A stretch of DNA of 51,380 nt from an uncultured Anaerobiospirillum sp. (lineage in GTDB: Bacteria; Pseudomonadota; Gammaproteobacteria; Enterobacterales; Succinivibrionaceae): the NCBI GenBank assembly GCA_944390115.1, contig CALXOW010000018.1:1-51380 (forward strand). The letters are read 5' to 3'. Numbering within the stretch: position 1 is the first letter of the stretch; the number at the start of each line of letters is the position of its first letter. The notes beneath the pieces were generated by a model. That model saw only the letters and a list, made by a program, of their open reading frames with translations. It was not told where the DNA came from and made no database searches. A program made the position numbers and the translations under genes. Below, piece by piece: positions 28,613 to 44,545 of this stretch.

Positions 28613-28689
28613 CGGTGATTAGCGCAGTCCGGTAGCGCAACTGGTTTGGGACCAGTGGGTCGGGGGTTCGAATCCCTCATCACCGACCA
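28613..28689 (+). tRNA. tRNA-Pro (anticodon TGG), copy 1
   Basis: 77 bases including encoded CCA. The acceptor stem CGGTGAT pairs with ATCACCG, and the anticodon stem ACTGG/CCAGT encloses TTTGGGA with anticodon TGG. The T arm is GGGGGTTCGAATCCCTC and the discriminator is A. Confidence 0.97.
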
Positions 28690-28717
28690 AAATAAGCAAG
28701 CCGCAAGGCATAAGCGT

Positions 28718-28794
28718 CGGTGATTAGCGCAGTCCGGTAGCGCAACTGGTTTGGGACCAGTGGGTCGGGGGTTCGAATCCCTCATCACCGACCA
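28718..28794 (+). tRNA. tRNA-Pro (anticodon TGG), copy 2
   Basis: Base-for-base copy of the first gene, 28 bases downstream, in the same transcript. Encoded CCA present. Confidence 0.97.
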
Positions 28795-28925: not shown

Positions 28926-30185
28926 TTACATGCGCTTGGTACCTGAGAGCGGCGTGCTCGACTTAGCGCAGGGCTTCTTGCCTGTACTCTTAGTGCGCTT
29001 CGGGGCTGTAGCTTGAGCCGCCGGAACCTGCGTTTGAGTTTCCGGAGCCGCAGCTTGAGCTTTAGCAGGAGCGACCTTACGGGCTTTAGCTGGCGTCGCC
29101 TTAGGAGCTGCGACCTTAGAGCTCTTGGCCTTAGTGACCTTCACCGCAGCTGATTTAGCCTTGGCATCAGCCACTTGCGCTGCGTCAGACGAAGCTGCTG
29201 GGGCTTTAGCCTTAGGAGTCTTGGCAGAGGTGGTCTTAGCGGCTGGAGCCTTCTTGGTGGCTGCAGTGCGCTTAGCCTTTGGCGCGGCGCTCTTAGTAGC
29301 AGCTGGAGCGACCGTAGGGGCCACTTGAGCCTCAGGTTTAGCAGCTACAGCCGCAGATTCCTTAGCGCTGGCGACCGTTTGAGCCTTGGACTTCGTGGAG
29401 GCGGAGTTCTTAGGCTTGATCGTTAAGGTGTTGGCCGCAGCCGTTGGCGCAGGCTGAGCACTCTTGCTCGCCTTAGCTGTAGCCTTAGGGGCAGTAGCTT
29501 TGGCTTGCTGGGTAGCAGCGGCTTTAGCCTTAGCAGCAGGGGCAGGCTTGGCCTTAGTGGCCTTTGCGGCAGCGGCCTTAGCTGGCTTAGCTTTAGCGGC
29601 AGGTTTAGCTTGAGCGGCAGCCTTGGCCGGAGTGGCGGGCGCGCTAGGGGTTGCATTTGGTGGTGCAGCTTCAGTGAGCGGCTGGGCCTGAGGCCGAGTG
29701 GAGGCGGAGTTCTTAGGTCTGACCTCCAAGGTGTTGGCCATGCTGTGAGGCGGCGTGGTGGTTTGAGCGGCAACTTGCTGGGCTTTTTGGGCCTTACGCT
29801 CGGCTGCTGCCTTTTCGGCCGCACGCGATTGGAACTTAGGGCCACGCTTTAACATCAGCGACTCGTAAGTCAGGTTCTTAGGAGGCGGCAGCTTGACGTA
29901 GCCGTACTCGTAGCCGTTGAGGCGCATTACCGTAACCTCTTTGAGGATAGGGTAGCGCTCAATGAAGCTAGGCTTAAAGGCAATGCGACCAAAAGGCGCG
30001 CCGTTTTCGATTCGGCCTACCGTTTCGCGCGCAATCACCTTCGAGCGCTTCTTTTGGGTGTCCCACATATGGACGGTGGTAGTCACCATACTACGCGCGA
30101 CACCGTTGGCGAGCTTATGGACAAAGGTGGTGAGGCTAGGAATGCCTAGCTCTCTGATGTTGAGGTGAATTTTCGGGGGCGCCAT
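28926..30185 (-). CDS. Histone H1-like Ala/Lys/Pro-rich protein with a transposase-like N-terminal domain
   Basis: 419 residues in two parts. Residues 1-130 form a folded domain (SMVTTTVHMWDTQKKRSKVIARETVGRIENG..., ILKEVTVMRLNGYEYGYVKLP) that resembles the N-terminal segment of IS1634/IS4-like transposases, from memory. Residues 130-419 are almost wholly Ala, Lys, Pro, Thr and Ser in KAKPA/KATPA repeats, as in AlgP or bacterial H1-like proteins that bind DNA by charge. The motif MANTLEVRPKNSAST occurs again as AANTLTIKPKNSAST, marking an internal duplication. The catalytic part of a transposase is absent. A nucleoid-associated role is inferred, not shown. ATG 30185 has AAGGAG ahead. Confidence 0.75.
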   Translation of the reverse strand: MAPPKIHLNIRELGIPSLTTFVHKLANGVARSMVTTTVHMWDTQKKRSKVIARETVGRIENGAPFGRIAFKPSFIERYPILKEVTVMRLNGYEYGYVKLPPPKNLTYESLMLKRGPKFQSRAAEKAAAERKAQKAQQVAAQTTTPPHSMANTLEVRPKNSASTRPQAQPLTEAAPPNATPSAPATPAKAAAQAKPAAKAKPAKAAAAKATKAKPAPAAKAKAAATQQAKATAPKATAKASKSAQPAPTAAANTLTIKPKNSASTKSKAQTVASAKESAAVAAKPEAQVAPTVAPAATKSAAPKAKRTAATKKAPAAKTTSAKTPKAKAPAASSDAAQVADAKAKSAAVKVTKAKSSKVAAPKATPAKARKVAPAKAQAAAPETQTQVPAAQATAPKRTKSTGKKPCAKSSTPLSGTKRM

Positions 30186-31915: not shown

Positions 31916-32551
31916 CTAACGGGTGCCGAAGACCACAATAGTCTTGCCATGGGCGTGGATGAGGTGGTTCTCTTCCATCATCTTTAAGATCCTGCCCACC
32001 GTCTCACGCGAGCAGCCCACGATCTGACCAATCTCTTGGCGCGTAATCTTGATCTGCATGCCATCTGGGTGAGTCATCGCCTCGGGCTGATGCGAGAGGT
32101 TGAGCAAGGTCTTGGCAATGCGGCCGGTCACGTCTAAGAAGGCTAAATTGCCCACCTTCTTGGAGGTGTCGGTCAGACGGGCCGCCATCTGGGCGGACAG
32201 ACGCATCAAAATCTCAGGGTTAACCTGCACCAATTGCTTGAACTTGTTGTAGGAAACCTCAGCGATCTCACACTGGCTCTTGGCCTTGACCCAAGCCGTG
32301 CGGGTTGGATTCTCCTCGGACTCATTGAACAAGCCTAACTCGCCAATGAAGTCGCCCTGGTTTAAGTAGGAGAGAATCATCTCGTGGCCGTCATGATCCT
32401 TGATCAAGACCACTACCGTACCCTTGACGATATAGTAGAGGGTGTCAGCTTTCTCGCCCGCATGGATAATGGTGCTCTTGGCGGCATGCTTGTGAATGTG
32501 ACATTGACTGATAAACCAGCTAATGGTGCTATCTGCAGGTTGCTTAACCAT
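31916..32551 (-). CDS. crp: cAMP receptor protein (catabolite activator)
   Basis: Global cAMP-dependent regulator, 211 residues, close to E. coli Crp over its whole length. The cAMP pocket [10 protein letters not shown] and the following Arg/Ser region (RTAWV) are present, as are the dimer helix [17 protein letters not shown] and the recognition helix [12 protein letters not shown]. Identity of the recognition helix implies the usual TGTGA-N6-TCACA target, which supports the sites proposed elsewhere in this window. A three-residue insertion (SEENPTRT) is seen against E. coli. ATG 32551 has AAGG at 7 bases. Confidence 0.97.
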
Positions 32552-32933
32552 AACGAGACCTTAGAAAAGCAAAACTTAACCAACGACAAGAAAAGCTAGG
32601 ATTTAAGACCTGGCCTTGCTTGTACCAAAAAACAGCTACTGCCACAGTCAAGGCAGCTTAACCATTGTACTTGGGCCTGCGTGCTGTCCTCAAGCAGGGA
32701 CTGAGCCTTCCCCCAATATGGGTTGAGCCGCCCTAAGCCGGGGCTTAACCCGTGCTTCTTGGTTGGTGCCTTGATGCTGTGCTTGACGCCCAAGCCTTAG
32801 ACTGGGGCGCATGTGAGTATGACTAAGATACCATCAAACGTGCTCAAGTTCACGATCCCGCCCTAAAAATGATAGCGGCACGGCCGATAAAGGAAAGATG
32901 CGTGCCCCAAATGCGGCCTAATTTCGTGCCTTC

Positions 32934-32945
32934 GTGCTCGAGCCC
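32934..32945 (+). promoter_or_regulatory. Upstream GTGCTCGAGCCC operator-like half-palindrome
   Basis: Matches 11 of 12 bases of the palindrome at 33172-33183, 238 bp upstream of it. A distant auxiliary operator is a common arrangement for LacI-type repressors that loop DNA. Inference only. Confidence 0.4.
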
Positions 32946-33101
32946 GTGGTGATAAATGGCTTATCTTATTGCTATGTGCCTATTAGCGTGCCCTAAAATA
33001 GGGACTTTTTCCTAATCTTTGGGGAAAAGTTGGGAGCTAGGTTCTAGTGGGGGCACAGGCGCTAACCCTTTTGACATCGAGCATCACGCGCCTTTCTCTC
33101 T

Positions 33102-33123
33102 TTTTTAATCGCGGATCACATTT
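33102..33123 (+). promoter_or_regulatory. Crp-like site upstream of the sugar-binding protein gene
   Basis: The right half GATCACATTT is perfect and the left half is poor. The centre is about 60 bases before the start predicted from the TATGAT box at 33160-33165, which suits class I activation. Confidence 0.45.
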
Positions 33124-33159
33124 TTGCAATTGCATTACAAATTTGGGCTTTGTTTGCCT

Positions 33160-33183
33160 TATGATGCTTATGTGCTCGAGCAC
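33160..33183 (+). promoter_or_regulatory. Predicted promoter -10 box and overlapping palindromic operator
   Basis: TATGAT (33160-33165) predicts a start near 33172, exactly where the perfect 12-base palindrome GTGCTCGAGCAC (33172-33183) begins; the dyad extends outward as TA(T/C)...(G/A)TA. A repressor bound there would block initiation. The LacI-type protein encoded at 42714 is the likely partner. Confidence 0.55.
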
Positions 33184-33242
33184 GTACATCACTGCGTGCT
33201 AATTTGCTTGGAGCCGTAGGTGTTAGCACACACCAGGGCGCA

Positions 33243-33305
33243 AAGCTAGCTAGCGGCTAGTGTAACGCTAGCTTGAGGCTAGTCTAACGAGTCGCTAGCT
33301 AGCTT
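33243..33305 (+). promoter_or_regulatory. Leader hairpin before the sugar-binding protein gene
   Basis: Perfect 13-bp inverted repeat AAGCTAGCTAGCG / CGCTAGCTAGCTT, with a 37-base interior that itself holds repeated GGCTAGT(G/C)TAACG. It lies in the predicted 5-prime untranslated region, ending 48 bases before the start codon. It could stabilise the message or bind a regulator. Confidence 0.65.
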
Positions 33306-33353
33306 AGCATCGCGGCTCTAAGTGTGGATGTGTCATAGAAAAGGATTTGTCAT

Positions 33354-34427
33354 ATGAAGAAGATGAAGGCAAGCATTAGCGTTTTATGTGCCGCTGTTTT
33401 GGCTGCAACTTGCTTTGCAAGCAGCGCTGAGGCCGCTAAGATTGGTGTTTCGATGCCAACCCAATCGCTGCAACGCTGGAACCAAGACGGTGCCAACATG
33501 AAGGCTATGCTTGAGGCCGCAGGCCACACCGTTGACCTCCAATACGCTGGTGACAACGACATCCCAACCCAAGTTAACCAGATTGAGAACATGATCGCTG
33601 GTGGTGACGAGGTTATCGTTATTGCTGCCATCGATGGCTCGGCTTTAACCGAGGTCTTAAAGGGCGCTAAGGAAAAGAACATCCCAGTTATTTCCTATGA
33701 TCGTCTGATCATGAACTCCGACGCTGTTTCCTACTACGCAACCTTCGATAACACCAAGGTTGGTCAGATGCAAGGCCAGTACATCGTCGATGCCCTGAAG
33801 TTAGCTGACGAATCAGTTAAGGGCCCATTCAATATCGAGCTCTTTACCGGTCCTACCGATGACAACAACGTCAACTTCTTCTTCCCTGGCGCTATGTCGG
33901 CTCTGCAGCCATACATCGACAGCGGCAAGTTAGTTGTTAAGTCCGGCCAGACCACCAAGGAGCAGGTTGCTACCTTGAACTGGAACTTAGAAGAGGCTCA
34001 AAAGCGTATGGAGAATTTAATCTCCTCGAACGCTTACGGCCCAGAGGACACTCCATTACACGCCGTTTTAACCCAGAATGACGCTTTAGCTTGCGGTGTC
34101 GTCAACGCCTTATTAGCTACCGGCTATGACAATACCAATATGCCAGTCATCACCGGCCAAGACTGCGATAAGCCAGCGGTTAAGAACATCGTTCGTGGCT
34201 ATCAGTCGATGTCCGTCTTCAAGGACACCCGTACCTTAGCTGCTCAAGTAGTTAAGATGGTTGACGCTATCACCAAGGGTGAGAAGGTCGAGGTTAACGA
34301 CACCACCACCTACAACAATGGCACCGGTGTCATCCCATCCTACCTGTGCGAGCCAGTTGCCGCTACCAAGGACAACTACAAGGCCCTCTTAATTGACTCG
34401 GGCTACTACAAGGCCGACGAGCTCTAA
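33354..34427 (+). CDS. ChvE-type monosaccharide-binding protein of an ABC transporter
   Basis: Periplasmic substrate-binding protein, 357 residues, with a Sec signal (cleavage near AEA-AKIG, residue 28). The mature protein follows ChvE/MmsE closely: KIGVSMPTQSLQRWNQDGANM, VIVIAAIDGSALTEVLKGA, ISYDRLIMNSDAVSYYATFDN, FNIELFTGPTDDNN and a late FKDTRTLA. ChvE relatives bind several aldopentoses and aldohexoses such as glucose, galactose, xylose and arabinose. First gene of the locus, ribosome site AAGGA, and separated from the ATPase gene by a terminator-like hairpin, so it is probably made in excess. No lipobox. Confidence 0.93.
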   Translation: MKKMKASISVLCAAVLAATCFASSAEAAKIGVSMPTQSLQRWNQDGANMKAMLEAAGHTVDLQYAGDNDIPTQVNQIENMIAGGDEVIVIAAIDGSALTEVLKGAKEKNIPVISYDRLIMNSDAVSYYATFDNTKVGQMQGQYIVDALKLADESVKGPFNIELFTGPTDDNNVNFFFPGAMSALQPYIDSGKLVVKSGQTTKEQVATLNWNLEEAQKRMENLISSNAYGPEDTPLHAVLTQNDALACGVVNALLATGYDNTNMPVITGQDCDKPAVKNIVRGYQSMSVFKDTRTLAAQVVKMVDAITKGEKVEVNDTTTYNNGTGVIPSYLCEPVAATKDNYKALLIDSGYYKADEL

Positions 34428-34572
34428 TTGAGCTTGGGTGCTCTATTGAGCAGAGCTTGAAGCTTGCGCCGAGCTTTGGCTTGAACCGAGCTTTGGCTCT
34501 CACAGCCACACGCTGAGTGTGCAACATTGAGTTGTTGGGTGATAAGGAGCACCGCTGAGCCTCCTTAACAAT

Positions 34573-34628
34573 AGGCCAAGGGAGCGGGGCCCAATACTTT
34601 CCCTTGTTCCCTTGGCCTGTTTGTTTTT
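34573..34628 (+). terminator. Terminator/attenuator between binding protein and transporter genes
   Basis: Perfect 11-bp stem AGGCCAAGGGA / TCCCTTGGCCT with a 24-base loop, followed by GTTTGTTTTT. It would end most messages after the binding-protein gene and let a fraction continue into gguA-gguB. Confidence 0.88.
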
Positions 34629-34723
34629 GCCCTGACCCCATTCCGCTTTCTTAGGATGGATTTGCGCTTTGGCGTGAAGCTTCGTGGGAAGTGCGGTTTT
34701 TGGGGTAAATTTGCCATTGGCTC

Positions 34724-34742
34724 CGTGCACGTGCACTGTCCC
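34724..34742 (+). promoter_or_regulatory. Shared palindromic element upstream of the ATPase gene
   Basis: GTGCACGTGCAC is a perfect 12-base palindrome followed by TGTCCCA. The copy at 42386-42404 reads GTGCGCGTGCACTATCCCA. In both places an upstream GGGA...GTGC stretch can pair with the GTGCAC...TCCC part. Confidence 0.5.
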
Positions 34743-34794
34743 ATAAATAGGCGCTTTTTTGAGGGCAAACGGTGTTGATTAGGTGGTGTTGCAC

Positions 34795-36354
34795 ATGGCT
34801 CAACAAGAAAAAGACATCTTGCTCGAGATGAAAAACATCACTAAGCGCTTTGGCAAGGTTACGGCGTTATCTAACGTTAACTTGCAGGTAGCGCGCGGTG
34901 AGGTGCACGCTCTCGTCGGTGAAAACGGCGCGGGCAAATCGACGCTGATGAATGTCTTGTCTGGTATCTACCCTTATGGCTCTTACGAGGGCGATATCGT
35001 GTTTGATGGCCAGACTTGCCAATTCAATACGATTAAAGATAGCGAGGCCAACGGCATCGTTATTATTCACCAAGAATTAGCCTTGGTGCCTTTCCTCTCC
35101 ATTGCTGAGAATATGTTCTTAGGTAACGAGCGTACCGCTTCATTCTCCGGCAAGGTGATGGACTGGCCGCGTACCTTTCAGCGGGCACGTGAGCTGTTAG
35201 ACTTAGTGGGCTTACACGAAGACCCACGTACCCTGATTAAAGACATTGGTGTCGGCAAGCAGCAATTAGTTGAGATTGCTAAAGCTATTGCCAAGAATGT
35301 GCGCCTGCTTATCTTAGATGAGCCAACGGCCTCGTTAAACGAGACTGACTCCAAGGCGCTGTTAGATCTGATTGCCCGCTTCCGCGATGAGGGTATGACT
35401 TCGATCATCATCTCGCATAAGCTCAATGAGATCTCCTATATCGCCAACTCGATTACCGTGATCCGCGATGGTAGCACGATTGAGACCATCGACAACTCCA
35501 ATCACGACGTCTCCGAAGACCGCATTATTGCGGGCATGGTGGGCCGTGCTTTAACCGACCGCTTCCCACCTCGTCAGACCAAGCCTTCCTCGGAAGTCTT
35601 ATTCGAGGTCAAGGATTGGACCGTATCGCACCCATTAAATCACGAGCGCAAGGTCTGTGACCATGTCAACCTCAATATCAAGAAGGGTGAGGTGGTTGGC
35701 CTGTCAGGACTGATGGGCGCAGGCCGCACGGAGCTAGCACAATCGGTCTTTGGTCACTACTACGGTGCCAATATCTCAGGTCATGTGCTGATTAATGGCA
35801 AGGAAGTGCACTTAAATTCGGTGCAAGACGCGATTGATCATGGCTTAGCCTATGTCACCGAAGATCGTAAGGGTGATGGCCTGCTTTTAAATAGCTCCAT
35901 TACTATGAATACCACCTTGGCGGCGCTCCACAAGGTCTCCACGCACAATGTCATCGACAAGAACAAGGAGATTGGCGTTGCCGAAGACTATCGCCAGCAG
36001 CTTAAGACTAAGTGCTCAGGCGTGGGCCAATACGTGGGCAATCTCTCCGGTGGTAATCAGCAAAAGGTCTTACTGGCCAAGTGGATGTTTGCCGATCCAG
36101 ATATTCTGATTTTGGACGAACCGACCCGTGGTATCGACGTCGGTGCCAAGTACGAAATCTACTGCATCATCAATGACTTGGTAGCCCAAGGCAAGGCGGT
36201 GCTGATGATTTCCTCCGAACTGCCGGAAATCTTGGGTATGTGCGATCGTATCTACGTCATGAACGAAGGCAAGATTGTGGCCGAGATGCCACGTGCAGAG
36301 GCCTCCCAAGAGTCCATTATGGCGGCTATTCTGCGTTCGTCGGCGGCTAAGTAA
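34795..36354 (+). CDS. gguA: Monosaccharide ABC transporter ATP-binding protein (GguA/MmsA type)
   Basis: Cytoplasmic ATPase of 519 residues with two nucleotide-binding domains in tandem, as in GguA, XylG and MglA. The first domain has Walker [10 protein letters not shown] and Walker [12 protein letters not shown]. The second has the degenerate loop GLMGAGRTE, the signature [14 protein letters not shown] and [17 protein letters not shown]. Start at ATG 34795 with AGGTGG ahead; GTG codons at 34783 and 34786 are also in frame. It lies 27 bases upstream of the permease gene in the same unit. The gene name is by resemblance to the Agrobacterium chvE-gguA-gguB system. Confidence 0.93.
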
Positions 36355-36380
36355 AGGCGACCTGTAAAGAGGATCTGGCA

Positions 36381-37544
36381 ATGGATCAATTTCTCAATGT
36401 CGTAAAGCGCAACTCGTTGTTGCTGGCTTTGGTCGTGGTAATGGTGCTCTTTGAGATCGCCATTCGTGCCACAGGTCACGGTTCGATGTTCTCACCATCG
36501 AACTTCACCAATATTATTTCGCAAAACTCCTACGTTATTATCTTAGCGGTCGGTATGCTCTTCTGTATTATCGGCTGCGGTAACGTTGACCTGTCGGTCG
36601 GCTCGATTGTCGCCTTAGTGGGCGCGATCGCGGGCGTCTTGATGGTCAATATGGAGCTCAACATCTACCTCTCGATCGCGATCTGCTTGGTCGTCGGTGT
36701 CTTGATTGGTGCTTGGCAGGGCTTCTGGATTGCCTATGTGCGTATCCCAGCGTTCATCGTAACCTTAGCCGGTATGATGCTATTCCGTGGTATGGCGCTG
36801 TTAGTCTTAGACGGCTTAACCATTTCGCCATTCCCACCAGAGTATCTGCGCTACTTCACCTCCTTCATTCCTAAGGCCCGCGCTGACGCCTTTACCTTAA
36901 CCATGGTCGTAACGGTCGTTCTGTGCGTTGCCTATCTGGCCTATGTGCTGTGGAATCGCTCCACCAAGATCAAGAAGGGCTATCAGGTTGAGGAGACTGC
37001 AGTCTTTGCTATCACCACGATTATTGTGGAAGGCGCTATGATTGGCTCGGGCTTACTCTTAGCTAACAACAAGGGTATCCCAGTTATCTTAGTGCTCTTG
37101 ACCATTATCGTCTTGGCCTATAGCTTCTATGCCAACAACACGGTCGGTGGCCGCCGCCTCTATGCCTTAGGTGGTAATGAGAAGGCCGCTAAGCTCTCGG
37201 GCGTTAACACCAACCGCATCTTGTTCCTGACCTACGTCAACATGGGCTTCTTAGCCGCCGTCGCCGCCTTAGTCTGCGTCGCCCGCTTCAATTCGGCTGC
37301 TCCTACCGCTGGTAACGGCTATGAGCTGGACGCCATCGGCGCCTGCTTCATCGGTGGTGCTTCGGCCTACGGTGGTGTTGGTACGGTCGGTGGTGCCGTG
37401 ATTGGTGCGGTCTTCATGGGCGTTCTCAACAACGGTATGTCGATCTTAGGTATCGACGCTAACTGGCAGCGTACCGTTAAGGGCTTAGTCCTGTTAATTG
37501 CGGTCGTAATCGACGTTTTATCCAAGAAGCGCGTTAAGCAGTAA
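36381..37544 (+). CDS. gguB: Monosaccharide ABC transporter permease (GguB/MmsB type)
   Basis: Inner-membrane permease, 387 residues, with about ten helices. Family marks of the BPD_transp_2 group are visible: NVDLSVGSIVALVGA, IPAFIVTLAGMMLFRG, and the C-terminal LDAIGACFIGGASAYGGVGTVGGAVIGAVFMGVLNNGMSI-type block. It forms the channel for the sugar delivered by the ChvE-type protein. AGAGGA lies 7 bases before the ATG. Codon use in this gene and its neighbours is strongly biased, suggesting high expression. Confidence 0.95.
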   Translation: MDQFLNVVKRNSLLLALVVVMVLFEIAIRATGHGSMFSPSNFTNIISQNSYVIILAVGMLFCIIGCGNVDLSVGSIVALVGAIAGVLMVNMELNIYLSIAICLVVGVLIGAWQGFWIAYVRIPAFIVTLAGMMLFRGMALLVLDGLTISPFPPEYLRYFTSFIPKARADAFTLTMVVTVVLCVAYLAYVLWNRSTKIKKGYQVEETAVFAITTIIVEGAMIGSGLLLANNKGIPVILVLLTIIVLAYSFYANNTVGGRRLYALGGNEKAAKLSGVNTNRILFLTYVNMGFLAAVAALVCVARFNSAAPTAGNGYELDAIGACFIGGASAYGGVGTVGGAVIGAVFMGVLNNGMSILGIDANWQRTVKGLVLLIAVVIDVLSKKRVKQ

Positions 37545-37777
37545 TGGGTCGGCCCATCGGGCCACCCTACGGGGGCGTCGCATGGCGCAATGCCGCACGC
37601 GCAGCATCGCACGCGGCGCACCCCGTCCCAGCAGGGCTGAGCTAAGCAAGTCCTGCTGGTTAAACAGATTAGTTATTTCTCTCAGGCTGGCCTGGGGCCG
37701 ACAGCGTGTCCGAGGAGCTCAATTGGTAGCGTATGATTGCTAGTTGGGTCTAGGCCGAGATTGTGGTGAGATTTTAG
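37545..37777. other. GC-rich spacer between permease and kinase genes
   Basis: Contains a GGCCC-ATC-GGGCC hairpin just after the permease stop codon (37551-37563), an ACGGGG...CCCCGT dyad around 37568-37626 enclosing GCACGCG repeats, and CCAGCAGG...CCTGCTGG (37628-37659). None has a T-run. These may be processing or stabilising stems within the operon. Confidence 0.55.
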
Positions 37778-39961
37778 ATGAAGTATTTATTAGGTGTAGA
37801 TCTTGGTACTTCGGGCACCAAGACGGTATTGTTTGATGAGCAGGGCAAGAGCATTGCCGCCAAGACCATTGAGTACCCACTCTATCAGCCTAAGAACGGC
37901 TGGGCCGAGCAAGACCCAATGGATTGGTACCACGCTGCGATCGACTCGATTAAGGCGGTGCTGACTGAGTCTCAGATTGACCCACATGATGTCGCCGGTT
38001 TGGCGATTGCAGGTCAAATGCACGGCTTGGTCATGCTCGATAAGGACGGCAAGGTCCTGCGCAAGTCGATCTTATGGTGTGACGCTCGTACCTCCAAGCA
38101 ATGCGATGAGATCACCAATTTAGTTGGCAAGAACCGCTTAATTGAGATCAACGCTAATCCAGCCTTATCGGGCTTTACCGCTCCTAAGATCTTATGGGTC
38201 CGCGAAAACGAGCCAGAGCTCTACGCGCAATGCGCCACCATCCTCTTACCTAAGGACTTCGTGCGCTATATGTTAACCGGCGTCAAGGCGATGGAAATCT
38301 CCGATGCCTCCGGTACCAATCTGCTCGATATCAAGAACCGCACTTGGTCTGACGAAATCCTGCAAAAACTCTCGATCGAGCGCAGCTTACTGCCTGAGCT
38401 GATTGAGTCCTGCGCTGTAGCCGGTAAGATCAACGCCGAGACCGCCGCTTTAACCGGCTTAGTTGAGGGCACGATCGTCGCAGGTGGTGCTGGTGATAAC
38501 GCCGCTGCCGCCTTAGGTACCGGTGTCTGCCGTGATGGTGAGGCCTTTGTTACCTTAGGTACCTCGGGCGTCGTCTTTGCTCACACCTCCAAGGTATCGA
38601 TTGACCCATTAGGCCGTGTTCACACCTTCTGCGCTGCTGTTCCAGGCACTTGGACTGCCATGTCCTGCACGCTGGCCGCAGGCTTATCGCTGCGCTGGGC
38701 CCGTGATGAGCTCTACAGCGCTGAGCACGCTCAGTGCCAAGTCTCCGGTGGCGACGCTTACGATCTCATGACCTCGGAAGCCGCTACCGTGCCATCTGGC
38801 AGCGACGGCTTAATCTACTTACCATACCTCATGGGCGAGCGCTCGCCAGTGCTCGATGCTGAGGCCCGTGGTGTCTTCTTTGGCCTGTCGGCTCGTCACA
38901 AGAAGGCCCATTTAACTCGTGCCGTACTCGAGGGCATCACCTTATCGCAGCGCCACAATTTAGAGGTGCTCCATGAGATGGGCATTGTCCCTCAGACCTT
39001 AACCGCTTGCGGTGGTGGTGGCCGTTCGCCATTCTGGCGCCAGATGTTAGCTGACATCTTAAAGTGCAAGGTTACGACCATTGCCTCCAAGGAAGGCCCA
39101 GCCTTAGGTGCTGCTATCTTAGCTGCGGTGGCCGCTGGTCTCTATCCAAGCGTTGAGGCTGCCGTTGACGCCTTAGTTAAGCCAGGTGAGGCCAAGGCCG
39201 ACCCAGTTCCAGCTGAGGTGCAGCGCTACGACGCCATCTACCAGCTCTATCAGAGCCTGTACCCAACCATGCGTCCTGCCTTCCACAAGCTCGCTGCTTT
39301 ACGTGGCAAGTTAGAGGGCGAGCCAGTAGCCAAGTACCCATCGGTCTTCTCGGTTGAGTTCGAGCGCTTTGGTAAGGTCATCCCATGCGTTGATACCGCC
39401 AAGGTCGGTGAGCTCTTAGCTCAGCTGCCATGCCCACAAGACGCTGTCACCTATGTTGCCAGCGAGCCAGTCCTGGAGACCCCAGAGCTGATGGCTGACC
39501 TGCAAAACCGTGTCTTTGGTGGTCTGCCAATTCAAATTGGCTACTGCTCGGGTCACAACCGCACCCTCAACGCCATTGAGTACCACCGCAACTGCGAGAT
39601 CAACATCACCGGCACTGATGCGCTCTTCATGTTAGCCCCGATCACTGCGATCAAGGACGGCATCATGGACACCTCGCAGGTTGAGACCTTCTTTGCACCA
39701 AAGGGCACTGCAGTTCAGTTCTATGAGACCTGCCTGCACTATGCTCCTTGCCACAGCGATGATGGGCACGAGTTCCGCGTTGCCGTAGTCCTGCCAAAGG
39801 GCACCAATACTGACAAGCCAGCGAACTTAGATTGCAAGTGCGACCCAGAGCCACACATGCTCACCGCTAATAACAAGTGGCTCTTAGCTCATAAGGACAG
39901 CCCAGAGGGCAAGAACCACATCTCAACTGGCATATTAGTCGGCGAGAACATCACCCTCTAA
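37778..39961 (+). CDS. FGGY kinase (xylulokinase type) fused to a DUF4867 cupin domain
   Basis: 727 residues in two enzymes. Residues 1-505 form a full FGGY sugar kinase of the XylB type: LGVDLGTSGTKTVLFDEQG at the start, AGQMHGLV, WCDART, the GGAGDNAAAALGTG phosphate loop and CGGGGRSPFW. Residues 519-727 match DUF4867 proteins, which normally stand alone (SVEFERFGKVIP, GGLPIQIGYCSGHN, LHYAPCHSDDGHEFRVAVVLPKGTNT, NKWLLAHKDS). The cupin has a possible metal set His593, Glu601, His603, His654 and His659, like sugar-isomerising cupins. The fusion suggests that both parts act on one sugar. It lies after gguB and before the isomerase gene. The kinase substrate (xylulose or another ketose) is not decided. 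Confidence 0.9.
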   Translation: MKYLLGVDLGTSGTKTVLFDEQGKSIAAKTIEYPLYQPKNGWAEQDPMDWYHAAIDSIKAVLTESQIDPHDVAGLAIAGQMHGLVMLDKDGKVLRKSILWCDARTSKQCDEITNLVGKNRLIEINANPALSGFTAPKILWVRENEPELYAQCATILLPKDFVRYMLTGVKAMEISDASGTNLLDIKNRTWSDEILQKLSIERSLLPELIESCAVAGKINAETAALTGLVEGTIVAGGAGDNAAAALGTGVCRDGEAFVTLGTSGVVFAHTSKVSIDPLGRVHTFCAAVPGTWTAMSCTLAAGLSLRWARDELYSAEHAQCQVSGGDAYDLMTSEAATVPSGSDGLIYLPYLMGERSPVLDAEARGVFFGLSARHKKAHLTRAVLEGITLSQRHNLEVLHEMGIVPQTLTACGGGGRSPFWRQMLADILKCKVTTIASKEGPALGAAILAAVAAGLYPSVEAAVDALVKPGEAKADPVPAEVQRYDAIYQLYQSLYPTMRPAFHKLAALRGKLEGEPVAKYPSVFSVEFERFGKVIPCVDTAKVGELLAQLPCPQDAVTYVASEPVLETPELMADLQNRVFGGLPIQIGYCSGHNRTLNAIEYHRNCEINITGTDALFMLAPITAIKDGIMDTSQVETFFAPKGTAVQFYETCLHYAPCHSDDGHEFRVAVVLPKGTNTDKPANLDCKCDPEPHMLTANNKWLLAHKDSPEGKNHISTGILVGENITL

Positions 39962-40170
39962 GTAAAGCCGCAATAACGAGGGTCTGTGTCCCGTGCTAGG
40001 CCCTCACCTAGCAGGTCCCTACAAGGAACCAAAATAGGGGCCTGCCAGGGGCTAAAATGGGGGCCAGTAATGATCCTAAAATGAGGCCAGCTAGGTCCCA
40101 AAATAGGGGCCAGCTAGATCCCAAAACGGGACGACGCAGGAGTCTTTTTTAGGGCTCCTGCGGCACGGTA

Positions 40171-40199
40171 AAAAGTGAGCGTGACCGTGCACGCTTTTT
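40171..40199 (+). terminator. Terminator after the kinase repeats
   Basis: AGCGTG / CACGCT with loop ACCGTG, followed by five T and preceded by an A-run. It ends the transporter-kinase unit before the independent isomerase promoter. Confidence 0.7.
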
Positions 40200-40359
40200 C
40201 AATTGAGCAATTTTCTCTACCCCAGGGTTTAGCGGCGGTGATGGTCGCGATAAATGCGATAAATATCACGTTTTGCTGAGATCTGCGGTAGAGGTGATTG
40301 TCGGCTCTGTGTTGCATATTGGGCGCCGTAAACGTTGCGGATCGCCAAAAAAAATGCAA

Positions 40360-40381
40360 TAAGGTGATTTTGATCATCCTT
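40360..40381 (+). promoter_or_regulatory. Crp-like site upstream of the isomerase gene
   Basis: GTGAT-TTT-GATCA gives 7 of the 10 Crp consensus positions with correct spacing. Its centre is 61.5 bases before the start predicted from TACAAT, the classic class I distance. Confidence 0.55.
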
Positions 40382-40419
40382 TCACGTCTTAGTGTGCTCA
40401 TTTTGTTGGGCTTAAATGC

Positions 40420-40455
40420 TACAATGAGCCTATCTTGTGACGTGCTCAAGATCAC
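40420..40455 (+). promoter_or_regulatory. Isomerase promoter -10 box and downstream operator-like dyad
   Basis: TACAAT (40420-40425) predicts a start near 40432; there is no good -35 box, as expected for a Crp-dependent promoter. GTGCTCAAGATCAC (40442-40455) follows at about +11 to +24 and shares GTGCTC with the palindrome at the sugar-binding protein promoter and with GTGCTCAAGTTCAC at 32840. Confidence 0.5.
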
Positions 40456-40684
40456 CAGCGCACGGAGACAACGGTGGCATTCGCCCCTAGCAGCGTGTCT
40501 TGCCCGTGCTTTTAGCACGCAAGGGTGACTCTACACTAAATCCTTGCTGCTAAGCGCTTTTAACCTCATTGTGTGGGGGCAAAAAGTGGGGCAATCGCAA
40601 CCGTTTGCACTGCTCGCGGCGATGGCGACCTCAGCTATCGCTCTGAGCTATCGTCACCTAGGAACACTTGGAGAGATTTTTCTG

Positions 40685-42202
40685 ATGGAAATGACTAATA
40701 TCCCAGACGCAAAGCTTGGCGTAATTGCTGTATCCCGTGACTGCTTCATCCGTACTTTATCCGAGCGTCGCCGTCAGGCTGTTGTGGCTGAGTGCAAGAA
40801 GGCTGGCTTAGACGTAACCGAGATCACCACTATCGTCGAGAACGAAATCGACGCTCAGAAGGCGGTTGCTGAGGCTAAGGCTGCTGGCTGCAATTCTTTA
40901 GTAGTCTTCTTAGGCAACTTCGGTCCAGAGACCCCAGAGACCTTAATTGCTAAGTTCTTTGACGGCCCATGCATGTTCGTAGCTGCCGCTGAAGAGACCG
41001 GCAATGACTTAGTCGACGGCCGTGGCGACGCTTACTGCGGTATGCTCAACTGCTCCTACAACTTAGGCTTACGTAAGTTAAAGGGCTTTATCCCTGAGTA
41101 CCCAGTTGGCACCGCAGCTGACATCGCTAAGATGGTATCTGAGTACGTACCAGTTGCTCGCGCTTTACTGGGCGTCTCGAACTTAAAGATTATCACCTTT
41201 GGCCCACGTCCTCAGGACTTCTTTGCTTGCAATGCTCCAATCAAGGGCTTATATGACATCGGTGTTGAGATCGAAGAGAACTCCGAGCTCGACTTATTAG
41301 TTGCCTACCGCAAGCACAAGGGCGACGAGCGTATCCCAGCCGTCATGAAGGAGATGGAGGCTGAGTTAGGCGCTGGTAACACCTACCCAGACCTGTTAGA
41401 GCGTATGGCTCAGTTCGAGCTGACCTTACTTGACTGGGCTGAGCAGCACAAGGGCTCGCGCAAGTACGTCGCTTTTGCTGACAAGTGCTGGCCTGCCTTC
41501 CCAGAGGAGTTCGGCTTTGAGCCTTGCTACGTCAACTCGCGCTTAGCTTCGCGCGGCATCCCAGTTGCCTGCGAGGTTGATATCTTCGGTGCTTTATCTG
41601 AGTACATCGGCGCTTGCGTCACCAAGGATGCGGTCACCTTACTGGATATCAACAACTCCGTACCAGCTGACATGTACGAAGAGAGCATCAAGCCTAAGTT
41701 CCCTCAGTACCAGCTCACCGATACCTTCATGGGCTTCCACTGCGGCAACACCCCATTCTGCAAGCTCAACCAGGATAAGGGCTGCGACATGGCTTGCGGC
41801 AAGATCAACTATCAGATCATTCAGCACCGTCTGTTAGAGGCTGGTCGTGACGAGCCTGATTTCACCCGTGGTACCTTAGAGGGTGATATCGCTGCAGGTC
41901 CAATCACCTTCTTCCGTCTGCAAACCACTCCAGACACCACTTTACAGGCTTACATTGCCGAGGGTGAGGTTCTGCCAGTTGCTACCCGTTCCTTCGGTGG
42001 TATTGGTATCTTCGCCATCAAGGAGATGGGCCGCTTCTATCGCCACGTTCTGATTGCTGATCGTTATCCTCACCACGGTGCCGTTGCCTTCGGTCACCAT
42101 GGCAAGGCTCTGTTCGACGTCTTCTCGATGTTAGGCATCGCCAAGATCTCCTACAATCAGCCAAAGGGCGTTCTCTACAAGACTGAGAACCCATTTGCCT
42201 AA
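40685..42202 (+). CDS. L-fucose/L-arabinose isomerase-family protein (COG2407)
   Basis: Likely aldose-ketose isomerase, 505 residues, related to the fucose isomerase family. The N-terminal alpha/beta domain is KLGVIAVSRDCFIRTLSERRR and VVFLGNFGPETPE. The central CYVNSRLASRGIPVACEVDIFGALSEY and LLDINN supply a metal-binding Glu and Asp, and the C-terminal block is GPITFFRLQTT...FAIKEMGRFYRHVLIADRYPHHGAVAF. It is shorter than FucI (about 590). Start at ATG 40685 with GGAG upstream; the frame remains open to 40544 without similarity. It probably converts the imported aldose to the ketose phosphorylated by the kinase next to it. The sugar is unknown. Confidence 0.88.
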   Translation: MEMTNIPDAKLGVIAVSRDCFIRTLSERRRQAVVAECKKAGLDVTEITTIVENEIDAQKAVAEAKAAGCNSLVVFLGNFGPETPETLIAKFFDGPCMFVAAAEETGNDLVDGRGDAYCGMLNCSYNLGLRKLKGFIPEYPVGTAADIAKMVSEYVPVARALLGVSNLKIITFGPRPQDFFACNAPIKGLYDIGVEIEENSELDLLVAYRKHKGDERIPAVMKEMEAELGAGNTYPDLLERMAQFELTLLDWAEQHKGSRKYVAFADKCWPAFPEEFGFEPCYVNSRLASRGIPVACEVDIFGALSEYIGACVTKDAVTLLDINNSVPADMYEESIKPKFPQYQLTDTFMGFHCGNTPFCKLNQDKGCDMACGKINYQIIQHRLLEAGRDEPDFTRGTLEGDIAAGPITFFRLQTTPDTTLQAYIAEGEVLPVATRSFGGIGIFAIKEMGRFYRHVLIADRYPHHGAVAFGHHGKALFDVFSMLGIAKISYNQPKGVLYKTENPFA

Positions 42203-42287
42203 TAACTTAGTGCCAAACTAAGTAGAGCGGTGCCTGCCTGAGGTAGGCACCCGCCAGAAAAAAAAAGAAAATTAGCAAAGAAATAAT

Positions 42288-42312
42288 AAAGCCCTGTCTC
42301 AGGGCTTTTTTT
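42288..42312 (+). terminator. Terminator of the isomerase gene
   Basis: AAAGCCCTG / CAGGGCTTT with loop TCT, followed by further T. Confidence 0.92.
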
Positions 42313-42385
42313 GAAAGCTAAGCGTGCTTTGTGCACTTTGTGTCGACAAGTGCCAAAGTTTGGGATAGCGCATGTATTCGGCCTT

Positions 42386-42404
42386 GTGCGCGTGCACTAT
42401 CCCA
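42386..42404 (+). promoter_or_regulatory. Second copy of the GTGC-CGTGCAC-TCCCA element, upstream of the LacI-type gene
   Basis: GTGCGCGTGCACTATCCCA differs at two positions from 34724-34742. GGGATAGCGCATG lies 15 bases upstream and can pair with it over 11 of 14 positions. Its placement before the regulator gene fits autoregulation or a conserved RNA stem. Confidence 0.45.
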
Positions 42405-42713
42405 AGCTTTGCGTTATGCTGAGCATACCTAGCAATGCCCATAAGGCAAGGTGCCCCCAGGCAGGCCTCAAGGGCCGAGTCGCCGTCAGGCGCTATGACT
42501 TCAGGATAGAACTGAGGTACCTCAGACTCTGGTTTTAATTTGGTGCTGGCGTATTTGGTTGTTGCAGTGAGTTAAGACGCCAGTCAGATCAGCTCGTGTC
42601 AGCTCTCAGCAGCTCCACCTGTTGCAGCGACGTAGAACATATTTAACGGACAAAGACATGGAGGCGGCGCTTCCTCCCCCAAGTGAGCTTGAGGGTATCC
42701 GCGCCGGGTTGTG

Positions 42714-43757
42714 ATGAAGGTAACGGTAAAGAGCCTAGCCCAAGCAGCAGGTGTGTCGCGCGGTACGGTCGACCGCGTACTTCATAATCGTGGCGCGGTT
42801 AAAGACGAAGTCGCCAAGCGCGTGCGTTTACTCGCCAAGGAATTAGGCTATGTGCCTAATCGTGCCGGTCGTGCCCTCGCCGCCTACAAGACCCCAATTA
42901 AGATCGGTGCCCTGATGCCAAGTGTCGGCAATGCCTTCTATCAAGAGATTATCCAAGGCATTAACGAGGCGCAAAACGAGTTTGCCGACTTAGGCTTAGA
43001 GGTCGTGCTCAAGGAAGTTGAAGGCTTTGATGAGCAAGTGCACCTTGAGGCGATCGACAGCTTGCTCAAGAAGGGCTGCCGTGCGCTGTGCTTAGCCACA
43101 GTTAATACCCCACGTCTAGCCGAGCGTATCAATGAGCTGCACGATAGGGGTACGGTCATTGTGCTGCTCAACACAGACGTTGAGAATACGCGCCGTCTGT
43201 GCTACGTCGGCTCAGATTATTTAACTGCCGGTGCCACCTGCGCCGGCATGCTGGCGCTAGCACGCCAAGACAAGCTCCATATCTTAATTGTCACCGGTTC
43301 GCGCCTGCTCTTAGGTCACAATCTGCGTATCAAGGGCTTCAAGGAGGAGCTGGATCGCCAGAACATCGATTACGACATTGTGGACACGGTCGAGAGCTTT
43401 GACTCAGACATCAGAGCCCAGCAAGTCACCTATAAGGTCTTAAAGGCGCACAGTGAGATCAACTGCGTGTACATCGCCGGTGCTGCGGTGCAAGGTGTGG
43501 GCTCAGCTTTAATTGCCAACGGCTCCAAGGATGTCTTTGCCATTGGTTTTGACGAGCTCTACTCGACGCGCCAGCTGGTGAGCGCCGGTATCATCAAGTT
43601 TGTAGTGTGCCAGCAGCCAACGCGCCAAGGCTACCATGCGATTAAGCGTGCCTACCAAGCAGTCGCCGGGCAATTAGGTGATAGTGTGCCCGACTTTATC
43701 ACCGACACCATCATCAAGATTAAGGCGAACTTAGAGCGCACGGTACCAGGCCGCTAA
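42714..43757 (+). CDS. LacI-family transcriptional regulator
   Basis: 347 residues. The N-terminal helix-turn-helix is TVKSLAQAAGVSRGTVDRVLHNRG, with the hinge helix YVPNRAGRALAAY at about 47-60. A periplasmic-binding-protein-like sensor (KIGALMPSVGNAFYQEIIQGINEAQ) with the family FDS and GFDEL segments follows. It probably represses the sugar locus and responds to the imported sugar or its ketose. Candidate operators are the GTGCTC-type dyads at 33172, 32934 and 40442. An in-frame GTG precedes the ATG by one codon, and no strong ribosome site is seen. It is followed by its own terminator. Confidence 0.93.
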   Translation: MKVTVKSLAQAAGVSRGTVDRVLHNRGAVKDEVAKRVRLLAKELGYVPNRAGRALAAYKTPIKIGALMPSVGNAFYQEIIQGINEAQNEFADLGLEVVLKEVEGFDEQVHLEAIDSLLKKGCRALCLATVNTPRLAERINELHDRGTVIVLLNTDVENTRRLCYVGSDYLTAGATCAGMLALARQDKLHILIVTGSRLLLGHNLRIKGFKEELDRQNIDYDIVDTVESFDSDIRAQQVTYKVLKAHSEINCVYIAGAAVQGVGSALIANGSKDVFAIGFDELYSTRQLVSAGIIKFVVCQQPTRQGYHAIKRAYQAVAGQLGDSVPDFITDTIIKIKANLERTVPGR

Positions 43758-43786
43758 TACGGCACTCAAGTGCAAATCACCCTAGA

Positions 43787-43812
43787 CCAAGGGCCCCTGA
43801 TGGGGCCTTTGG
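43787..43812 (+). terminator. Hairpin terminator of the LacI-type gene
   Basis: CCAAGGGCCCC / GGGGCCTTTGG with loop TGAT and one G-T-type irregularity. It lies 30 bases after the stop codon. T-run weak. Confidence 0.65.
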
Positions 43813-43814
43813 CG

Positions 43815-44545
43815 TCACTGGGGCCGCAGGCGCACGCCTGGTCCCAGCCCGCTCCTTGAGGCACGCCGTCTCATTGCACTTTCTGCGATGGCGTAAGTCC
43901 TGACCCGCCACCCGCCCTTAAGGGGCGCGGCATCAGGTGCAGCGCCATGCGGCTGGCCGCGCTGCCTGGCTCGGAGTGCCCGGTACATAGGCTCAAGCAA
44001 GTGTGAGCGTGAGCGCCACGTTGGTTGGACCGGTACGATCTTGAGGCACGCGCCTCATTGCACATTTTGAGATAGCGCAAATCATAGCCCACCCACTCGC
44101 CCTCAAAGGCGCGGCATCAGGTGCATCGCCATGCGTATTGGCCGCGCGTTAAGGCTCGGTTAGCCCGGTTCGTGGCTCAAGCAAGTGTGAGCGCGAGCGC
44201 CAGATCGATTGGGCCGGAGCGGCCGTGTGGCACGTGGTCTCATTGCACTTTCTGCTATGGAGCAAGTCCTGACCCACCCACCCGCCCTTAAGGGGCGCGG
44301 CATCAGGTGCAGCGCCATGTGGCTGGCCGCGCGTTAAGGCTCGGAGTGCCCGGCTCGTAGGATCAAGTGATCTTGGGCTGGAGCGCCAGGTCGCTTGGGC
44401 CGGAACGTCCTTGCGGCATGTGTCTCATTTCCCATCTTGAGATGGCGCAAGTCCTAGCCCATCCACCCGCCCTCAAGGGGCGCGGCATCAGGTGCAGCGC
44501 CATGCGACTGGCCGCGCGTTAAGGTTAGGTGTGCCCGCTGCGTGG
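43815..44545. repeat. Array of four imperfect 185-bp tandem repeats
   Basis: GGCATCAGGTGCA recurs with its C of CATCAG at 43931, 44115, 44301 and 44486 (spacing 184, 186, 185). The motif GGCA(C/T)G...TCTCATT recurs near 43860, 44045, 44229 and 44415. Every unit keeps GCCCT(T/C)AA(G/A)G(G/-)GGC-like and GCGCGGC...GCCGCGC pairings, the second enclosing about 25 variable bases. Unit lengths that are not multiples of 3, plus stop codons in all frames, argue against coding. A hairpin terminator stands at each end. Function unknown; structured RNA or a protein-binding array are possible. Confidence 0.9.

Follow-up and report, generated by a model that had tools for sequence, protein, structure and literature searches.

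A xylulokinase fused to a DUF4867 cupin in a probable D-xylose operon of Succinivibrionaceae

Two kinds of described system stand closest to the locus considered here: clostridial xylose operons with an isomerase of family PF02952, and the DUF4867 proteins SqvB and SftX of sulfoquinovose (SQ) pathways. In Clostridium acetobutylicum, xylB, CAC2611 and xylA (CAC2612-2611-2610) are co-expressed as one operon (PMC3507653), and CAC2610, a PF02952 protein, was identified as a xylose isomerase by disruption, complementation of an Escherichia coli delta-xylA strain and assay (PMC2873477). An operon of Clostridium saccharobutylicum comprises xylB, a ROK regulator, a fructose-6-phosphate aldolase, a transketolase, a DUF4867 gene and an 'L-fucose isomerase'; deletion of its xylB abolished growth on xylose and left growth on arabinose (PMC6158908). 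The Bacillus megaterium DUF4867 structures 9GYY and 9GYZ are cupins in which Fe/Zn is bound by E97, H99, E103 and H150 (PMC11968277). The window, i.e. the whole stretch of DNA analysed, is a contig of 51,380 nucleotides from an uncultured Anaerobiospirillum sp. of the family Succinivibrionaceae (GCA_944390115.1, CALXOW010000018.1; the entire contig C18 of its assembly), and at 37778..39961 it carries a gene in which a xylulokinase (XylB) and a DUF4867 cupin are joined in one chain.

The locus resembles CAC2612-2611-2610 in having a xylulokinase, one gene between, a PF02952 isomerase and no classical XylA (PMC2873477), but in C. acetobutylicum the genes are separate and are accompanied by a ROK-type XylR and other transporters, whereas the window has one chain, a ChvE-GguAB transporter and a LacI-family regulator. 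XylB, DUF4867 and the isomerase are also shared with the C. saccharobutylicum operon, in which xylB is needed for xylose (PMC6158908) but which, unlike the window, is unfused and includes the aldolase and the transketolase. SqvB and SftX (9GYY/9GYZ; PMC11968277, PMC9594981) belong to the same Pfam family as the cupin half (phmmer E 8e-42) and share its four metal ligands, but they stand alone in a sulfosugar context and have no kinase half. The likeness to the mutarotases RhaM, GalM and YihR lies in the proposed role and in the place near a free-sugar isomerase gene, as judged from context; the fusion has no match to the RhaM and GalM families (PF05336, PF01263) in Pfam at E 0.001. The FGGY-DUF4867 architecture (10 counted in InterPro) and a mutarotase or ring-isomerase role for DUF4867 are already in print (PMC11968277), and a 2026 rumen paper does no more than label SftX as DUF4867 (PMC13219744). 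The assignment to a XylA-II xylose operon and the rhamnose-cluster and GalM contexts are new: the words rhamnose, xylose, xylulose, RhaM and KduI are absent from the main text of PMC11968277, and in the literature searched the fusion was not found assigned to a XylA-II xylose operon, nor DUF4867 in place of RhaM.

The fusion protein and its history

The gene and its parts are as follows.

37778..39961, forward strand: XylB-DUF4867 fusion, a single uninterrupted open reading frame of 727 amino acids
37778..39301, forward strand: xylulokinase half, residues 1-508 (TIGR01312, 561.6 bits), its end set where unfused XylB relatives stop
39302..39343, forward strand: interdomain linker, in frame, of a length that differs among fusions
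39344..39952, forward strand: DUF4867 cupin domain, residues 523-725 (PF16161; PDB 9GYY by phmmer at E 8e-42)
39578..39598, forward strand: metal-ligand motif E601-Y-H603-RNC-E607, with the same ligands as 9GYY
39737..39739, forward strand: fourth metal ligand, H654, the same as in 9GYY

Both domains lie far above their cut-offs. The kinase half has FGGY_N at residues 3-247 (263 bits) and FGGY_C at 257-453 (140 bits), and over residues 5-495 it passes the XylB model TIGR01312 of NCBIfam (561.6 against a cut-off of 380.25 bits), with far lower scores for ribulokinase models (221.1 and 160.5 bits). PF16161 scores 214.7 bits against a cut-off of 28.7 and is covered at profile positions 4-201 of 201; a scan of the organism's own genome, in which the fusion is the sole DUF4867 match, gave 218.5 bits for the cupin domain. 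Beside these, the remaining Pfam match at E 0.001 is a weak one to BcrAD_BadFG, and at that threshold no match was found to the ureidoglycolate lyase (AllA) or lyxose isomerase families. In the predicted structure of the fusion (predicted local distance difference test, pLDDT, 84.8; predicted template modelling score 0.77), an unbroken helix at 478-512 would start in the kinase and extend into the linker. The best fold match listed for the kinase half is E. coli XylB with xylulose (2ITM; template modelling (TM) score 0.85 on the target, 37% identity). All 50 fold matches listed are kinases of FGGY-type fold, so identification of the cupin half rests on its sequence match to 9GYY. By profile score and modelled fold the kinase half is a XylB, and phosphorylation of D-xylulose is predicted for it.

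The fusion is not peculiar to one assembly. A genome-collection scan was made with the cupin, and the best 80 of 208 relatives were fetched as loci; 33 of these 80 proved to be fused. By record title all are Succinivibrionaceae-like: Anaerobiospirillum, Succinatimonas, Succinivibrio, and unclassified relatives titled as Succinivibrionaceae, Aeromonadales or, in one case, 'gamma proteobacterium'. The junction is crossed by one frame in all 33 (two, L058 and L071, are clipped at their start by the contig), while the linker between two fixed motifs measures 30-32 residues in most fusions, 40 in L054 and 60 in L049 (that of L062 was read by eye). Since the frame is kept throughout in spite of insertions and deletions in the linker, a frameshift or an assembly error joining two genes, which the original prediction had placed near residue 510 as the finding that would overturn it, is excluded, and the fusion it described is real.

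Across 57 genomes of the family there are 35 full-length DUF4867 matches over the cut-off, two rhamnose-cluster ones aside, and each lies in a frame of 687-770 amino acids; outside the fetched loci the fused state in this count is judged by frame length only. The XylB half was confirmed by BLAST in 18 fetched genome regions and in the 33 fused loci, two sets that overlap. In this sample DUF4867 usually stands alone, as had been supposed: among 391 genomes of Clostridia, none of 74 full-length matches is fused, and the largest DUF4867 frame is of 411 amino acids with no XylB match near. Weak matches of about 20-35 bits (nine in Clostridia, two in the family) were set aside as AllA-like by their profile range.

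In a FastTree tree of 156 DUF4867 domains a branch with support 100 separates the fusions from all others, and nearest to them (support 78) are loci of Anaerotruncus, Marasmitruncus, Treponema and spirochaetes in which the cupin gene lies near the same isomerase. The tree was midpoint rooted, and its computation raised warnings about long branches and about the odd composition of L066. In Anaerotruncus colihominis (L078) and Marasmitruncus (L087) the order is ChvE-GguA-GguB-XylB-DUF4867-isomerase-LacI with all genes separate, and in A. colihominis the gap between XylB and DUF4867 is of about 20 bases, including the stop codon. The simplest history would be a single fusion event by loss of the stop codon and the short gap between xylB and duf4867.

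The isomerase and the sugar of the locus

The genes around the fusion are listed below; the cut-offs given for the transporter are NCBIfam equivalog cut-offs.

33354..34427, forward strand: ChvE, binding protein of a multiple-monosaccharide ATP-binding cassette (ABC) transporter (NF040907, 473 bits, cut-off 460)
34783..36354, forward strand: GguA, transporter ATPase, start codon uncertain (NF040905, 835 bits, cut-off 810)
36381..37544, forward strand: GguB, transporter permease (NF040906, 480 bits, cut-off 450)
40685..42202, forward strand: PF02952/COG2407 aldose isomerase of 505 amino acids, proposed XylA-II (PF02952, 96.7 bits; ATG start set by relatives)
42711..43757, forward strand: LacI-family regulator (PF00356 and PF13407), usually adjoining the operon in relatives

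A COG2407 isomerase and a broad-range transporter thus flank the fusion, in agreement with the original prediction. The fusion and the isomerase gene are 720 bases apart, and between them lie four imperfect 23-base tandem repeats (40024-40130, core CCAAAATAGGGGCC). Over 32500-44500, promoter-like and terminator-like sites did not outnumber those of shuffled sequence.

PF02952 is the only Pfam match of the isomerase at E 0.001. Its AlphaFold model (pLDDT 86) has an AraA/FucI fold, with L-arabinose isomerase 4R1O as best match (TM 0.75, 14% identity). Membership of XylA-II, a type unrelated to XylA-I, is indicated by the family and by the place in a xylB operon with one gene between, which here is fused to xylB. 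A genome of Clostridia with the C. saccharobutylicum-type xylB operon order (G289) provides a bridge: its isomerase is 66% identical to that of the window, and a XylA profile scan found no match in that genome. The isomerase of the window is most likely XylA-II, with predicted D-xylose isomerase activity.

Classical XylA (TIGR02630) has no match in the organism's own assembly, which is 93% complete, as the original prediction had it. None of 35 family genomes has XylA over the cut-off (four have weak matches, of 27-35 bits), and it is present in one of the 41 genomes behind 41 of the fetched 80 loci, nine of the 41 being family members. Fusion and isomerase (>=72% identity) go together in the 57 family genomes: both in 34, the fusion only in one, the isomerase only in one and neither in 21, and the two genomes with just one of them are 87-88% complete. 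The XylA-II gene lies outside the operon in several Succinivibrio-type genomes, for example about 750 kb away in G063:C1 (257909 vs 1009313); all the same, of the 35 family genomes that carry the fusion, 34 retain the isomerase.

D-xylose is in all likelihood the sugar of the locus because the isomerase is most likely of XylA-II type, the xylB of the related operon is needed for xylose and G289 lacks a XylA match. An operon for L-arabinose or another pentose is improbable, although the transporter is of the multiple-monosaccharide kind and the isomerase model lies nearest to L-arabinose isomerases: the kinase scores far better as XylB than as ribulokinase, no AraD-like gene occurs among the operon genes scanned, and in C. 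saccharobutylicum it is the use of xylose, not that of arabinose, which depends on the related operon (PMC6158908). Neither AraA nor AraB was met among the neighbouring genes scanned, no genome-wide search for either having been made, and to that extent the absence first proposed for both holds. The candidate pathway of the original prediction stands as a catabolic one, but it need not be an unknown one, the XylA-II route of D-xylose being likely. The fusion is real, and it is a variant of a known pathway.

A separate observation touches the kinase. C. acetobutylicum XylB assayed alone showed about 1% of the specific activity quoted for E. coli XylB (3.04 vs 298; PMC2873477); its activity might depend on a partner, for instance the product of the neighbouring gene.

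The cupin half and its possible activity

The alignment equates E97, H99, E103 and H150 of 9GYY with E601, H603, E607 and H654 of the fusion (the chain numbering of the PDB file is 20 higher, presumably from a tag), and this set of two glutamates and two histidines is present in 156 of 156 DUF4867 domains compared. The His/Glu set picked out earlier is thus complete, and the cupin half of the fusion very probably binds a metal. In catalytic cupins, coordination of the metal with two waters is common. Two further metal positions of 9GYY are occupied by water (PMC11968277).

The explanation preferred here would run as follows. ChvE-GguAB would import xylose, XylA-II would turn it into D-xylulose, and the XylB half would phosphorylate D-xylulose to D-xylulose 5-phosphate. 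The DUF4867 half would be a metal-dependent cupin that speeds ring/open-chain exchange of free xylose or xylulose, which would relieve the isomerase and the kinase of the limit set by slow spontaneous ring opening. The fusion would have arisen once, in the Succinivibrionaceae. Taken whole, a D-xylose operon with a ring-opening cupin and a single fusion event stands at an even chance; ring opening as the activity of the cupin falls slightly short of that.

The company that DUF4867 keeps bears on this activity. Within 7 kb, the 156 loci show the fusion in 33, XylA-II in 34, SftI-like genes in nine, IolB in nine, XylB only in eight, RhaA in four and other contexts in 59. The isomerases belong to unrelated families whose common trait is a free sugar that is mostly in ring form, which points to ring opening or anomer exchange. 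Cupin D-lyxose isomerases exist, which make D-xylulose from D-lyxose. An aldose isomerase or epimerase of that kind, feeding the kinase and widening the range of sugars, would suit a fusion to a ketose kinase and a ChvE-type transporter named for multiple monosaccharides. It is nevertheless quite unlikely: the XylA-II, RhaA, SftI-like and IolB contexts already own an isomerase (eight loci have the kinase with no isomerase near), and the fusion lacks a Pfam match to a lyxose isomerase family at E 0.001. Of the roles first suggested, the mutarotase is kept as the best guess, with the SQ and sulfofructose (SF) tests negative, and the isomerase and epimerase are not favoured; a catabolic pathway in which cupin and kinase share one sugar is supported.

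Ring opening gains some ground from rhamnose clusters. RhaA occurs in 6 of the 57 family genomes, with RhaM within 2.5 kb in four; the other two (G022 and G024) have no RhaM match, and in them a stand-alone DUF4867 gene abuts RhaA (L040 8832-9524; L039 8161-8850). In the G022 cluster RhaA, RhaB and RhaD are over NCBIfam cut-offs. Given these counts, a split as perfect as this would arise by chance with a probability of 1 in 15, and it is no more than suggestive. Among 120 clostridial genomes with RhaA, nine have RhaM at most 10 kb from it (one a weak match, 36 bits), three have DUF4867 there and none has both, which is consistent with exclusion of RhaM by DUF4867 but weak, as the three genomes with DUF4867 near RhaA could lack RhaM by chance.

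A GalM-type mutarotase was found in 8 of 40 XylA-I stretches, and DUF4867 in none of the 40. No GalM was found in the stretches of the 34 unfused XylA-II/DUF4867 loci, the 33 fusions or the 89 remaining DUF4867 loci. Fisher tests that ignore relatedness gave 0.0002 (8/40 vs 0/67) and 0.006 (8/40 vs 0/34). Selection of the 40 XylA-I loci, out of 103 genomes, was by hand and not random: most are high-scoring matches, and some near contig ends were skipped. The stretches compared are also not equally long (medians of 14.2, 12.7 and 16.0 kb, with the shortest at 6.1, 7.3 and 4.5 kb). At least one duplicate occurs among the 34 unfused loci, since L078 and L210 are one A. colihominis locus, and the title of L077 names that species too; 8/40 vs 0/33 for the unfused loci gives p 0.007.

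Published proposals are of the same kind. Pyranose ring opening was proposed for SqvB, and the majority of SQ clusters, across several types, have DUF4867 in place of the mutarotase YihR (PMC9594981). A crystal of the relative soaked in sulfofructose had ligand density at the metal, from either sulfofructose or buffer (PMC11968277). The nearest characterised relatives of DUF4867, distant ones, are AllA-type ureidoglycolate lyases (PMC11968277, PMC9594981), and this kinship lends something to another reading, in which the cupin would cleave hemiaminal-type adducts at the anomeric carbon, e.g. glycosylamines, and so return sugar to the pathway. Such a role would explain why the protein is dispensable in simple assays, but the case for it is one of chemistry only, and it is very improbable.

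Several points weigh against the ring-opening explanation. In nuclear magnetic resonance exchange experiments, SftX gave no mutarotation of SQ or SF; nano differential scanning fluorimetry gave no binding to BmSqvD, and kinase activity was absent (PMC11968277). In E. coli mutants, xylA-II and xylB of C. acetobutylicum achieve complementation in the absence of CAC2611 (PMC2873477), a gene likened to DUF4867 by position, and the XylA-II assignment itself comes from family, gene order and the bridging isomerase. The complementary pattern of RhaM and DUF4867 is drawn from six genomes, and 59 of the 156 loci have no recognised partner in the reference set, eight more having a kinase only. Clostridia that have the XylA-II/DUF4867 locus show no shortage of XylA beyond chance (3/16 vs 103/391 overall, p 0.58; the 16 are the loci then recognised, and of L168 and L171, recognised later, neither genome is in the XylA list), unlike the closer relatives with their one of 41. 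Likewise, a general replacement of XylA by DUF4867 loci in Clostridia is unsupported, XylA being present in 14 of 71 genomes with DUF4867. Finally, of the 117 members of one DUF4867 cluster, 61 have an aldose epimerase (PF01263) nearby (PMC11968277), which weighs against strict replacement of mutarotases; the GalM profile used here, which was grown from the E. coli protein, had no match near the 156 DUF4867 loci, though remote PF01263 proteins may escape it.

The inactivity of relatives in the published tests (PMC11968277) and the function of C. acetobutylicum XylA-II and XylB in E. coli without CAC2611 (PMC2873477) would also suit a non-catalytic cupin half. Such a domain, held by its metal, would bind sugar or mediate oligomerisation and so stabilise or regulate the kinase, and the metal core may serve folding. 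This reading is unlikely, given that the domain is free-standing in 74 of 74 clostridial loci, has several different isomerases as neighbours and keeps its four ligands in every domain compared, with water positions at the metal of 9GYY (PMC11968277). Beyond the window, DUF4867 might form a new class of metal-dependent cupin mutarotases or ring-opening enzymes, distinct from GalM, RhaM, RbsD/FucU and YihR and replacing these beside XylA-II/SftI, RhaA and IolB isomerases, with the Succinivibrionaceae fusion yielding open-chain ketose on the kinase; this wider claim is possible rather than probable.

Some DUF4867 loci have company of another kind. In L195, L201, L205, L214, L219, L221, L222, L225 and L229 the gene has an IolB-like neighbour, a 5-deoxy-glucuronate isomerase gene, and mostly also genes for PfkB, a class II aldolase, an FGGY kinase, Fe-S proteins and electron-transfer flavoprotein close by; the IolB neighbour of L221, the one tested, passes its equivalog cut-off. 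These loci look like an inositol- or uronate-like pathway that is not described in the literature looked at. In L224 DUF4867 is accompanied by RhaA, AraD, an FGGY kinase and a TIM-barrel protein, a set that resembles an L-lyxose route. The second DUF4867 gene of A. colihominis (L202, 2590-8743) lies with a RhaA-family isomerase, a nucleoside hydrolase, an iron-containing alcohol dehydrogenase and an ADP-ribosylglycohydrolase, perhaps for salvage of free ribose, and this company indicates that rhamnose need not be the sugar wherever RhaA is a neighbour.

Other features of the window and wider meaning

Two tRNA-Pro (TGG) genes lie nearly adjacent at 28613-28794, and beside them an open reading frame at 28926-30185 has a long tail rich in Ala, Lys and Pro.

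DUF4867 is a family with a solved structure for which sulfosugar substrates have given nothing. In the fusion it has a covalently attached kinase that is cheaply assayed, and two common sugars, D-xylose and D-xylulose, are candidate substrates; the RhaM-like position in rhamnose clusters offers a second, independent candidate in L-rhamnose. For the bacteria themselves, the locus suggests how Succinivibrionaceae of the rumen and gut may use xylose without a classical XylA.

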